Part shown: positions 14,375-51,900 of the stretch, piece by piece
How the letters are laid out: each line of letters starts with the position of its first letter
How positions within the stretch are numbered: the first letter of the stretch is position 1
Assembly: GCA_021835025.1 (NCBI GenBank)
Contig: JAKBQY010000054.1
Span: forward strand, 1 to 58,170
Source of the DNA: Thermoplasmata archaeon
GTDB lineage: Archaea; Thermoplasmatota; Thermoplasmata; Thermoplasmatales; Thermoplasmataceae
Length of the DNA stretch: 58,170 bases
Reading direction: 5' to 3'
Program-made: the position numbers and the translations under genes
Notes under the pieces: model-generated
Seen by the model: only the letters and a program-made list of their open reading frames with translations
Database searches by the model: none
Told to the model about the DNA's origin: nothing

Positions 14375-14454
14375 GCATATACCTTAAATCAACTTTATAA
14401 AAGTTAAATGTATTTCATTATATAATTTTTTTTAAATCAAAAATTCATATAAAA

Positions 14455-15852
14455 TTAAAAGTTTTTAATTGTATTTTCCATTGTTTTTGAATCAATTAAA
14501 ATAACATTTTTTTCTATTTTTGATATATTTCTAAGATCATCTTTAAAACCACTGAATGAAAAAATTATGTAAATATTATTAATTGAGTTAAATAATGATG
14601 CTTTTCTTTTTAAATTTTCAAAAATATCAAGTCCTACTTTACTATTCCGATATTTTACCTCGCAGTATATATTATTATTTTGATTATCAATTCCCATTAT
14701 ATCTATTTCCTCAATACCCTTGCCCTTTTGCTTGTTTTTATTATTTCCCCACCATTTTCCAATTGAAACAATTTTTGAATTCAATATTTTTTCTGAATAT
14801 TCTTTAATGAATTGAATACTTATTCCTTCAAATATACTTGAAATGTATTCATTTATATTTTTATTTATTAAAAATTTTACATAATCATATTCATTATTTT
14901 CAATATAACTCTGGTTTTCAAAAATGTATTTAAAATAAAAATTAAAATAATTACTTTTTATTCTATAAATAAATGAGCCCCTTTTTTTATTGAGTAATGG
15001 ATATTCCTTTTCAATAATATCCATGGATATCAATTTATCAATATATGGTGATAATTCATTTGAGTTATAATTCATAGTGTTTGATATTTCATTTATTTTA
15101 TTTTTTCCTGATGCTATCAATTTCAATATTGTGAAATATTTTTCGGGGCCTTTCAATTCCTCTCTTAATATAAAAAGTGCATCATTATAAAATATATTAT
15201 TTTTAGAAATAAACTGATATACTAAATCCTTATTTTTATCAATGAGTGATAAATAATATGGTATTCCACCCGTTAATGCATATATTTTTATTGCATTATC
15301 TATATTCACATTTAAATATTTATATACAGATTTAAAATCAAATTCTTCAATTTTGATATTTCCTGTTCTTCTGCCATATAATGGCGAACTATAATTTAAA
15401 ATATCATTGTAAACAACATTTATCAATGAACCACTTATTATAAACATTATGTTTTTGTTTATAAAATGTTCATCATAAAATTTTTGGAATATTGATAAAA
15501 ACGATTTGTCTTTTTCAATTATATATGTTATTTCATCTATTGCTATTACAATTTTTTCTTCCCCACTCCTTTGTATTATATATAGAAATAGCGAATCCCA
15601 ATCCTTCAATGGATTATTATATGTTATACTATCATCGTAAAATTCTGCTATTTTCATAGAAAATTTTTTGATCAATTCCTTTTTTTCCTCTTGTGTTGCC
15701 ATAAAATATATGCTTTTTTTGTTCTTTAGAAATTCTTTTATTAAAAATGTCTTTCCGATTCTTCTTCTACCGAATAATAAAATTAAGGAATTTCTTTTAT
15801 TTTTATATGTTTCTTCAAGGAAAATTATCTCACTTTCTCTATCAATAAACAT
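14455..15852 (-). CDS. Archaeal-type AAA ATPase with C-terminal DUF234 domain
   Basis: 465 residues. Walker A is GRRRIGKT (28-35), Walker B is the VIAIDEITY region, and FIISGS fits sensor 1. This is the 'archaeal ATPase' (MNS/STAND-like) layout. A winged-helix segment follows (around SGKNKINEISNTMNYNS). The C-terminal DUF234 region carries EIDIMGID and CEVKYR, an E-ID...ExK arrangement like the PD-(D/E)XK nuclease fold. The biological role of this family is not established. The start lies 28 bases from a motif array at 15880-15935, and a 50-codon ORF is divergently placed beyond it. AT content is even higher than in neighbours, hinting at acquisition. Confidence 0.8.
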   Translation of the reverse strand: MFIDRESEIIFLEETYKNKRNSLILLFGRRRIGKTFLIKEFLKNKKSIYFMATQEEKKELIKKFSMKIAEFYDDSITYNNPLKDWDSLFLYIIQRSGEEKIVIAIDEITYIIEKDKSFLSIFQKFYDEHFINKNIMFIISGSLINVVYNDILNYSSPLYGRRTGNIKIEEFDFKSVYKYLNVNIDNAIKIYALTGGIPYYLSLIDKNKDLVYQFISKNNIFYNDALFILREELKGPEKYFTILKLIASGKNKINEISNTMNYNSNELSPYIDKLISMDIIEKEYPLLNKKRGSFIYRIKSNYFNFYFKYIFENQSYIENNEYDYVKFLINKNINEYISSIFEGISIQFIKEYSEKILNSKIVSIGKWWGNNKNKQKGKGIEEIDIMGIDNQNNNIYCEVKYRNSKVGLDIFENLKRKASLFNSINNIYIIFSFSGFKDDLRNISKIEKNVILIDSKTMENTIKNF

Positions 15853-15879
15853 ATAATTATATTTAGTTGATGTTAATAA

Positions 15880-15935
15880 ATTTATCTAAATTGAATTAGA
15901 ATAATTTAACTTAGACTAATAAAATTTAGATAAAT
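15880..15935. repeat. Iteron-like array: one inverted and three direct copies of TTAGANNAAT at 15-bp spacing
   Basis: Direct copies TTAGAATAAT (15896), TTAGACTAAT (15911) and TTAGATAAAT (15926) begin exactly 15 bases apart. An inverted copy ATTTATCTAA lies at 15880-15889, so the ends form a perfect 13-bp inverted repeat (15880-15892 with 15923-15935). Outer arms TTAGTTGA (15863-15870) and TCAACTAA (15954-15961) give a second, nested inverted repeat. The array lies in the divergent promoter region between the DUF234 ATPase and the small ORF at 16008. Confidence 0.6.
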
Positions 15936-16007
15936 CAAACGTATATAATTATCTCAACTAATACTTAATTAAATTATTTATCAATTAAGGTGATTACACT
16001 ATAACCA

Positions 16008-16160
16008 ATGCCAAAAAAAGATCTTGATTTTATGTATGATAGGAATAGTTACATTGCAGTTAAATTCAAGATGAGTCCAAATGAAGAGTATAATAATCTA
16101 AGGCACACTAATGAAGAGATAATCCTTGAGTATAGGGGATATATGCAAAATAATGAATAA
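16008..16160 (+). CDS. Small hypothetical protein (50 residues)
   Basis: An ORF of 50 codons starting MPKKDLDFMYD and ending RGYMQNNE. GGTGAT lies 13 bases before the ATG, a reasonable ribosome site for this genome. The product is soluble, charged and predicted to be mostly helical at its C-terminal half. It has no recognisable domain. It is divergent from the DUF234 ATPase across the iteron-like array, so the two may be regulated together; this is inference. It could also be a chance ORF. Confidence 0.4.
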   Translation: MPKKDLDFMYDRNSYIAVKFKMSPNEEYNNLRHTNEEIILEYRGYMQNNE

Positions 16161-51607: not shown

Positions 51608-51900
51608 TCAATATGCAAATGTCACCCTCCTCATTTCATTGAAATAAGCTACTTTAATCCCAAGTTCCCGTTTCATGTACTCGGGTTTTACTGCTCTGAT
51701 AACTTCCTCCATTACCCTCCTGAATGCTGAAAATATATTTCAACTATCGCGCGTTTTCCATAATGTATAGAATCCTTTCATTTATAGAATAATGACGATG
51801 CTACACCATTATTTCTGCATATCTCTGCTATCGATATATTATTCTCAATGGATTCCATTACTATACTATATTCCTCTTCAACAGTCCATATTTTACCCAT
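51608..51900 (-). pseudogene. Decayed IS3-type transposase OrfA (helix-turn-helix)
   Basis: From ATG 51900 the frame reads MGKIWTVEEEYSIVMESIEN, then NISIAEICRNNGVASSLFYK and a stop. This is the HTH of IS3-family OrfA ('...sv.eiCr..gvs.s.fY.Wk'), with the Trp codon following FYK changed to TGA. The remaining 170 bases hold several stops and a frame shift (a frame MEEVIRAVKPEYMKREL is open to 51608). Confidence 0.5.

Follow-up and report, generated by a model that had tools for sequence, protein, structure and literature searches.

A 15-bp-periodic palindromic array as the probable autoregulatory operator of a DUF234 (PDC-S27-type) ATPase gene in a Thermoplasmata archaeon

In a 58,170-nucleotide stretch of DNA from a Thermoplasmata archaeon (contig JAKBQY010000054.1, referred to here as the window), the gene for a DUF234 ATPase and a divergent 50-residue open reading frame (ORF) are separated by a short region in which one sequence recurs at strictly regular intervals. 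The locus raises the question of whether this array is an operator, a replication origin or the end of a mobile element, and which protein it serves. The original prediction recorded three direct copies of TTAGANNAAT at 15-bp spacing and one inverted copy, set within a perfect 13-bp inverted repeat, and the sequence agrees in every particular: the direct copies start at 15896, 15911 and 15926 on the plus strand, exactly 15 bp apart, the inverted copy occupies 15880-15889, and the arms of the repeat are 15880-15892 and 15923-15935. The term "iteron-like", under which the array was first described, is better replaced by a reading on the minus strand, that of the ATPase gene, as four units of the form TTAG(n)CTAA. 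In this orientation the array (15881-15934) reads TTTATCTAA-N6-TTAGTCTAA-N6-TTATTCTAA-N6-TTAGATAAA, with units exactly 15 bp apart, and the gaps between the four units create three CTAA-N6-TTAG palindromes, at 15916-15929, at 15901-15914 (one base off) and at 15886-15899. The end of the array lies 28 bp from the ATG of the ATPase gene and is immediately followed by TTTATTAA (15873-15880, minus strand), a TATA-like element that is presumably the TATA box of the ATPase promoter; an A/T-rich stretch occupies the same place in orthologues. A second, outer 8-bp inverted repeat had also been noted. It is present at 15863-15870 and 15954-15961, and an inverted-repeat search additionally reports longer imperfect versions of the array repeats; in an alignment with the closest orthologue the outer repeat is lost, and it is probably due to chance.

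The individual 10-mer TTAGANNAAT is not rare, having 132 matches with one mismatch in the window against 194 expected. Matches to the spaced pair TTAGNCTAA-N6-TTAGNCTAA with up to two mismatches are confined within the window to the array (2 against 0.06 expected; two matches in 0/100 shuffles). A motif score, which was derived from the array itself and is therefore post hoc, reaches 23/24 at a period of 15, and none of the other periods between 11 and 20 exceeds 17. In shuffles of the intergenic region, a score of 23 was reached in 0/5000 (shuffle maximum 18) and the dyad alone in 3/2000. Copies of the array elsewhere in the genome, which the original prediction proposed to look for, did not appear: the 96%-complete assembly contains no second TTAGNCTAA pair with up to two mismatches, so that control looks local. 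A looser pattern occurs with one or two mismatches at 9 other places, against 6 for a reversed control, and the idea of a regulon of further array sites was rejected on these two results.

Within the order, 117 genomes were searched (E ≤ 1e-60), and ten places, counting the window, show at least 46% identity. Eight of these carry TTAGTCTAA units, namely the window, L011 (83% identity), L045 (61%), L046 (58%), L047 (56%), L012 (49%), L013 (47%) and L048 (46%, containing a stop). The remaining two, L014 and L049 (46-47% identity), carry TTATGATAA units in the same layout; L049 shares its start with L014, L045 is the same place as L043, and both pairs were merged by the script. In all seven intact genes of the TTAGTCTAA type, the window and six others of 47-83% identity, the array is found at a 15-bp period and ends 28 bp before the start codon, which is GTG in L013. 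These seven score 18-24/24 at period 15, above every other period from 12 to 18, with at most 1/1000 shuffles as good. The weakest array is that of L012, which scores 18/24 (1/1000 shuffles as good) and fails a motif-free lag test (12). Broken gene copies score lower (of 24): L048 reaches 14, and L189, a truncated copy in G081 with a stop after about residue 178, reaches 17 with a weak array of TTATA-type units. An array missing before orthologous genes, or one matched at chance frequency, would speak against the proposal of an operator-like array belonging to the ATPase; neither was found, and the proposal is supported by the presence of the array upstream of orthologues and the rarity of shuffles as good. 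At the level of sequence, the array, its 15-bp period and its conservation and fixed position in close orthologues are established.

The gene that follows the array (14455-15852, minus strand) encodes a 465-residue protein with an AAA+/STAND-like ATPase core, a winged helix and a PD-(D/E)XK domain, as judged from profiles and a structure model. Two Pfam profiles match above their curated cut-offs, ATPase_2 (PF01637; 91.3 against 33.2 bits) and DUF234 (PF03008; 63.9 against 22.5 bits), and the PADLOC model PDC-S27 matches residues 2-423 (E = 1.4e-52). The structure model (mean pLDDT 92.2, pTM 0.89) comprises the AAA+ core, a winged helix-turn-helix at residues 237-298 (14959-15144, minus strand) whose third helix spans residues 264-276, and a C-terminal domain. 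Residues 1-309 match PABY2304 (2qen; Z 21.9, rmsd 3.0, 292 aligned), which is also matched by sequence, and SSO1545 (2fna; Z 21.1, rmsd 3.0, 287 aligned); the next structural matches are plant NLRs and Orc1/Cdc6, at Z of about 16. The C-terminal domain (14458-14895, minus strand) was modelled with a pLDDT of 87.8 when folded alone, and among its best fold matches are AF1548 (Z 11.8, of unknown function according to its title), the Pyrococcus repair endonuclease 2vld, AspBHI, MspJI, EndoMS, SduA and Card1. The model thus assigns this domain the fold of the PD-(D/E)XK superfamily and makes it a putative nuclease. The residues D384, E398 and K400 are invariant in 12 sequences; across 11 C-termini D and K are invariant and E is present in at least 90%, and across 14 more distant ones D and K are invariant and E398 falls below 90%.

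The small ORF on the other side of the array (16008-16160, plus strand) had been proposed to form, with the ATPase and the array, a self-regulated two-gene system. It had no match among 40 relatives, of which two belong to the same genus (of the 41 genomes searched, 26 have a completeness of at least 90%), nor in plasmids, nor in viral contigs, where the search detects close relatives only. It belongs to no Pfam, PADLOC, NCBIfam or PHROGs family, and its coding score is unremarkable, ranking 34 among the window's 153 ATG frames with a length of 40-70 residues, a set that includes many ends of longer genes. Since the ORF is not conserved (0/40), the two-gene, toxin-antitoxin-like reading was abandoned, and the ORF probably lies outside the system. 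It may nevertheless be expressed, as the TATA-like sequence TATATAAT at 15942-15949 is placed to serve it. Elsewhere in the window, at about 51778-51900 on the minus strand, an ORF beginning MGKIWTVEEEYSIVMESIENNISIAEICRNNGVASSLFYK resembles by eye the start of an insertion-sequence transposase.

The same layout is found well beyond the close orthologues. A profile search with PF03008 matched 49 of 194 genomes of the phylum. Units of the form TTATnATAA stand in the 15-bp layout before L014 (24/24) and before L118 (22/24), a gene of the same class outside the order of the window, with 0/1000 shuffles as good in each case; for L120 the TTATnATAA score does not distinguish period 12 from period 15, and the motif-free test favors 15. 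The best lag is also 15 for a plasmid gene of Methanocaldococcus jannaschii and for the genes of Cetobacterium and Fusobacteria bacterium ZRK30 (Fusobacteriota); the Vescimonas gene shows no preference for it. Before four haloarchaeal genes, two copies of CATTATC can be seen by eye at a distance of 15 bp. Lag 15 is best in three of the four, though the score of 13 is modest, and none of them has a significant dyad; among the eight start regions of that comparison, only L208 and L209 have a significant dyad. Among relatives from IMG/VR, the lag test is passed by L191 and by L194, which does as well at lag 11, and failed by L192, L193 and L198. An exact triple array on the viral contig L207 was set aside as an apparent chance tandem repeat, as the contig is G+C-rich and none of its 16 listed ORFs is DUF234-like by eye.

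Across the family, a lag-15 score of at least 15 in the motif-free test was obtained for 15 of 55 non-redundant DUF234 starts (drawn from 76 start regions, with ZRK30, L210, passing alone outside the 15 counted); no other lag between 10 and 21 gave such a score in more than 1 of 55. Control gene starts, which were not hand-curated, passed at lag 15 in 8 of 300 cases (p = 2e-8 against the DUF234 starts), and two of these eight are arrays of the DUF234 family viewed from the divergent gene. Another of the eight, L029, encodes a P-loop protein resembling the DUF234 family by eye; its 15-bp-spaced palindromic pair begins 33 bp ahead of the start, a hint that the layout might extend beyond DUF234. 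In the dyad test, 64 DUF234 starts have a median z of 1.6, against 0.09 for 263 of the 265 control starts (p = 7e-11). A non-DUF234 regular-expression match (L132-11317) was excluded, as were sequences whose upstream DNA was too short. These are tendencies of the family as a whole, as most members fail singly, 40/55 in the lag test and 43/64 falling short of p ≤ 0.033 in the dyad test. In other DUF234 subfamilies a dyad lies over the start codon, for example GTTGAGTATAAAGTATTATACTTATGTCTCAAC, so that operator and N-terminal residues would share sequence, the dyad taking in the first codons; these dyads were assigned by eye to classes A-D, and one subfamily with a start-overlapping dyad comprises L015, L016, L017, L019, L032, L033, L050, L051 and L053. 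From sequence, then, a different motif in the same layout stands before the genes of other clades.

Conservation of the array does not reflect shared synteny with the window. In the five genomes whose surroundings are comparable (G001, G082, G083, G086 and G004), no window gene other than the DUF234 gene itself is found at the locus; of the six other intact orthologues, L012 in G006 was left out, its contig being 3.6 kb long. The same-genus relative G001, whose protein is 83% identical, has different neighboring genes, and what the two loci have in common is the array, the gene and some 45 bp beyond the stop codon, which gives an approximate moved unit of 14406-15950 (minus strand); the corresponding blast alignment (window 14406-15979, L135 4355-5931) becomes weaker past the array. 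At the site used in G001, the window genome has other genes and neither the ATPase gene nor an array (best 16/24). In G001, G002, G011 and G082, the two flanks of the window locus map to separate contigs or to distant positions, and none of these genomes offers a clean empty site.

In another genus the DUF234 gene occurs at two sites. Site 1 adjoins a methyltransferase gene and has array and gene in G082; in G084 the gene is absent, and the array is followed by unrelated sequence up to the far flank. G081 has no array there, and a remnant of a DUF234 3' end (L186, G081:C22) lies beyond its methyltransferase gene, on the opposite side, so that this arrangement is not a simple deletion. Site 2 has array and gene in G083 and G086, an array without the gene in G085, a degenerate array (17/24) without the gene in G087, and no array in G011 and G079 (13/24 each). 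A gene beside site 2 (MPMYETENSLDEKTKDMSRARQSLIEEMQ...), which resembles a ferritin-like family by eye, recurs several times in some genomes of that genus (G085:C19, G083:C22 and others). At a third locus, TTAGTCTAA arrays without the gene, each with a TATA-like element and identical across three species, are found in G011, G079 and G083 (L067, L121 and L127, at G011:C1:1006042, G079:C1:112312 and G083:C82:3454). Such combinations of array, gene and missing gene at unrelated loci of related genomes show that gene and array have moved together as a one-gene unit that was repeatedly gained or lost. Gene-less arrays remain largely intact (21-22/24) in five genomes at three loci, namely in G084, G085, G011, G079 and the second locus of G083, and they are the main facts that an operator does not require, though the gene losses may be recent. 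Between the gene-less arrays of G011 and G079 there are 0 changes in 34 columns where about 1 would be expected, a comparison with no power to reveal conservation in excess of the surroundings.

Taken together, these observations are best explained, with a probability of roughly two in three, by an autoregulatory operator of the adjacent ATPase, which would be bound by the protein's own winged helix and would most likely mediate autorepression by occlusion of BRE/TATA. Autoregulation accounts best for an effector that carries its own winged helix behind a promoter-overlapping palindromic array whose motif varies by clade: the position over the putative promoter is conserved (28 bp, 7/7), and a DNA-binding domain is present in the modelled gene product. 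Repression is favored over activation because the array lies against BRE/TATA here and the dyad lies over the expected transcript start in other subfamilies. In the proposed mechanism, the winged helix would bind the CTAA-N6-TTAG palindromes, and their recurrence every 15 bp against BRE/TATA would allow several protomers or dimers to assemble side by side and exclude TBP and TFB from the promoter. As 15 bp is about 1.4 helical turns, neighboring dimers would lie on different faces of the DNA and could wrap it. A potentially toxic ATPase-nuclease would thereby be kept at a low level, and expression would rise when the protein was diverted or consumed, for example during infection.

Activation would leave the same footprint as repression. 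Archaeal activators usually sit just upstream of BRE/TATA, as the array does, and MalT is a STAND ATPase that activates promoters. Another promoter-activating STAND ATPase is mycobacterial IniR (PMC5760070), and the DUF234 ATPase, when bound to ATP, could oligomerize on the array and recruit the basal machinery, giving a positive-feedback switch that fires on infection. However, the dyad of other subfamilies, as judged by eye, follows a TATA-like element and precedes the start codon, covering the point at which transcription is expected to begin. Such a position suits repression, and a site for activation is considered unlikely, though not negligible. It is likewise unlikely that an unrelated host regulator binds the array and that the ATPase is merely its target gene. 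Third-helix sequences do vary by class (NSNELSPY, NSGEITQY, DKSMVSKY, DKGNISKY and others), class and clade being confounded, and the operator motif differs between protein clades, yet covariation of the third helix with the operator is not significant after correction for similarity in the rest of the protein (partial correlation 0.14; 11/60 other segments at least as strong). A host regulator would fit this result, as it would the persistence of arrays where the gene is absent, including the gene-less TTAGTCTAA arrays of G011 and G079, whose nearest DUF234 relative uses TTATGATAA. Against it stand the joint occurrence of array and gene at unrelated loci, the reappearance of the 15-bp layout upstream of DUF234 genes in distant archaea and in some bacteria, and the lack of any other TTAGNCTAA pair in the genome of the window.

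The two remaining readings, a plasmid-like origin and element ends, had both been offered by the original prediction and are disfavored by the fixed distance between array and start codon and the absence of a second TTAGNCTAA pair (up to two mismatches) from the genome. The end or target site of a mobile element carrying the ATPase would explain why array and gene occur at unrelated loci of related genomes with homology starting at the array, and why gene-less array sites exist at the same syntenic positions. Nevertheless, inspection by eye recognized neither a target duplication nor a counterpart of the repeat at the 3' end, the gene-less site of G084 has unrelated sequence between the array and the far flank, and the promoter position suits an operator, which leaves an element end very improbable. 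Least credible of all is an iteron-type replication origin with the ATPase, an Orc1/Cdc6-like AAA+ protein plus winged helix, as its initiator: although second-tier structural matches to Orc1/Cdc6 exist (2qby, Z 16.4, rmsd 6.0, 266 aligned) and 149 of 72,556 plasmid records contain a relative at E ≤ 1e-10, the array is tied to the promoter at a constant 28 bp, single-contig genomes have the gene on their main contig, G011 in several copies, and the protein bears a nuclease fold.

An autoregulatory operator at a candidate defense locus would be of a known kind. BrxR and CapW are autoregulated wHTH repressors of defense islands that likewise control a defense locus from a palindromic operator; theirs is a separate repressor protein, whereas the window ATPase would be effector and repressor in one. 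The winged helix also has weak NCBIfam matches to Lrs14/Sta1, far below the cut-offs (Lrs14, E 0.003, 17.6 bits against a cut-off of 90). Lrs14 of the Sulfolobales autoregulates at its own promoter and, unlike the protein described here, is a small stand-alone DNA-binding protein without ATPase or nuclease. SSO1545 and PABY2304 share the AAA+ core and winged helix, but the match is limited to residues 1-309 of 465, and the nuclease-like domain of the window protein lies beyond it. IniR is a promoter-binding ATPase whose AAA+ domain is predicted to resemble SSO1545; in contrast to the proposed self-operator, it activates, controls another operon (iniBAC) and has MalT-like and SdiA-like domains (PMC5760070).

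The ATPase had been regarded as belonging to a family of no known function, a statement now slightly outdated: the family corresponds to PDC-S27, a phage-defense system that is so far a candidate (PMC12988326). As described for PDC-S27, the window protein is an ATPase fused to PD-(D/E)XK; the description in PMC12988326 includes no promoter architecture, and its main text contains 0 occurrences of "autoregul", "operator" or "promoter". PDC-S27 is among the most abundant archaeal defense candidates, with 3503 detected in archaeal genomes (PMC12988326), and rumen counts are given in PMC13356809. By title, the open-licence literature yielded no account of an operator for the DUF234/PDC-S27 family and nothing for PF03008; none of those titles concerns a 15-bp self-operator common to nuclease-bearing ATPases of one family. 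A bolder extension, regarded as decidedly improbable, would make PDC-S27 an immune switch built from a single protein, with the operator array doubling as its safety lock. The STAND ATPase-nuclease would be stored in an inactive form on its own promoter, as an oligomer in 15-bp register, until a signal of infection (ATP exchange, a phage protein or titration by foreign sites) set it free; its release would simultaneously lift repression of the gene and activate the nuclease.

A conserved, clade-specific self-operator would provide a DNA ligand for biochemistry, a reporter of the trigger and a route to the DNA specificity of the family. If the proposed autorepression is true, a nuclease effector that represses its own transcription would form an immune circuit of unusual compactness, and the 15-bp repeat before related genes suggests how a common defense candidate restrains itself.
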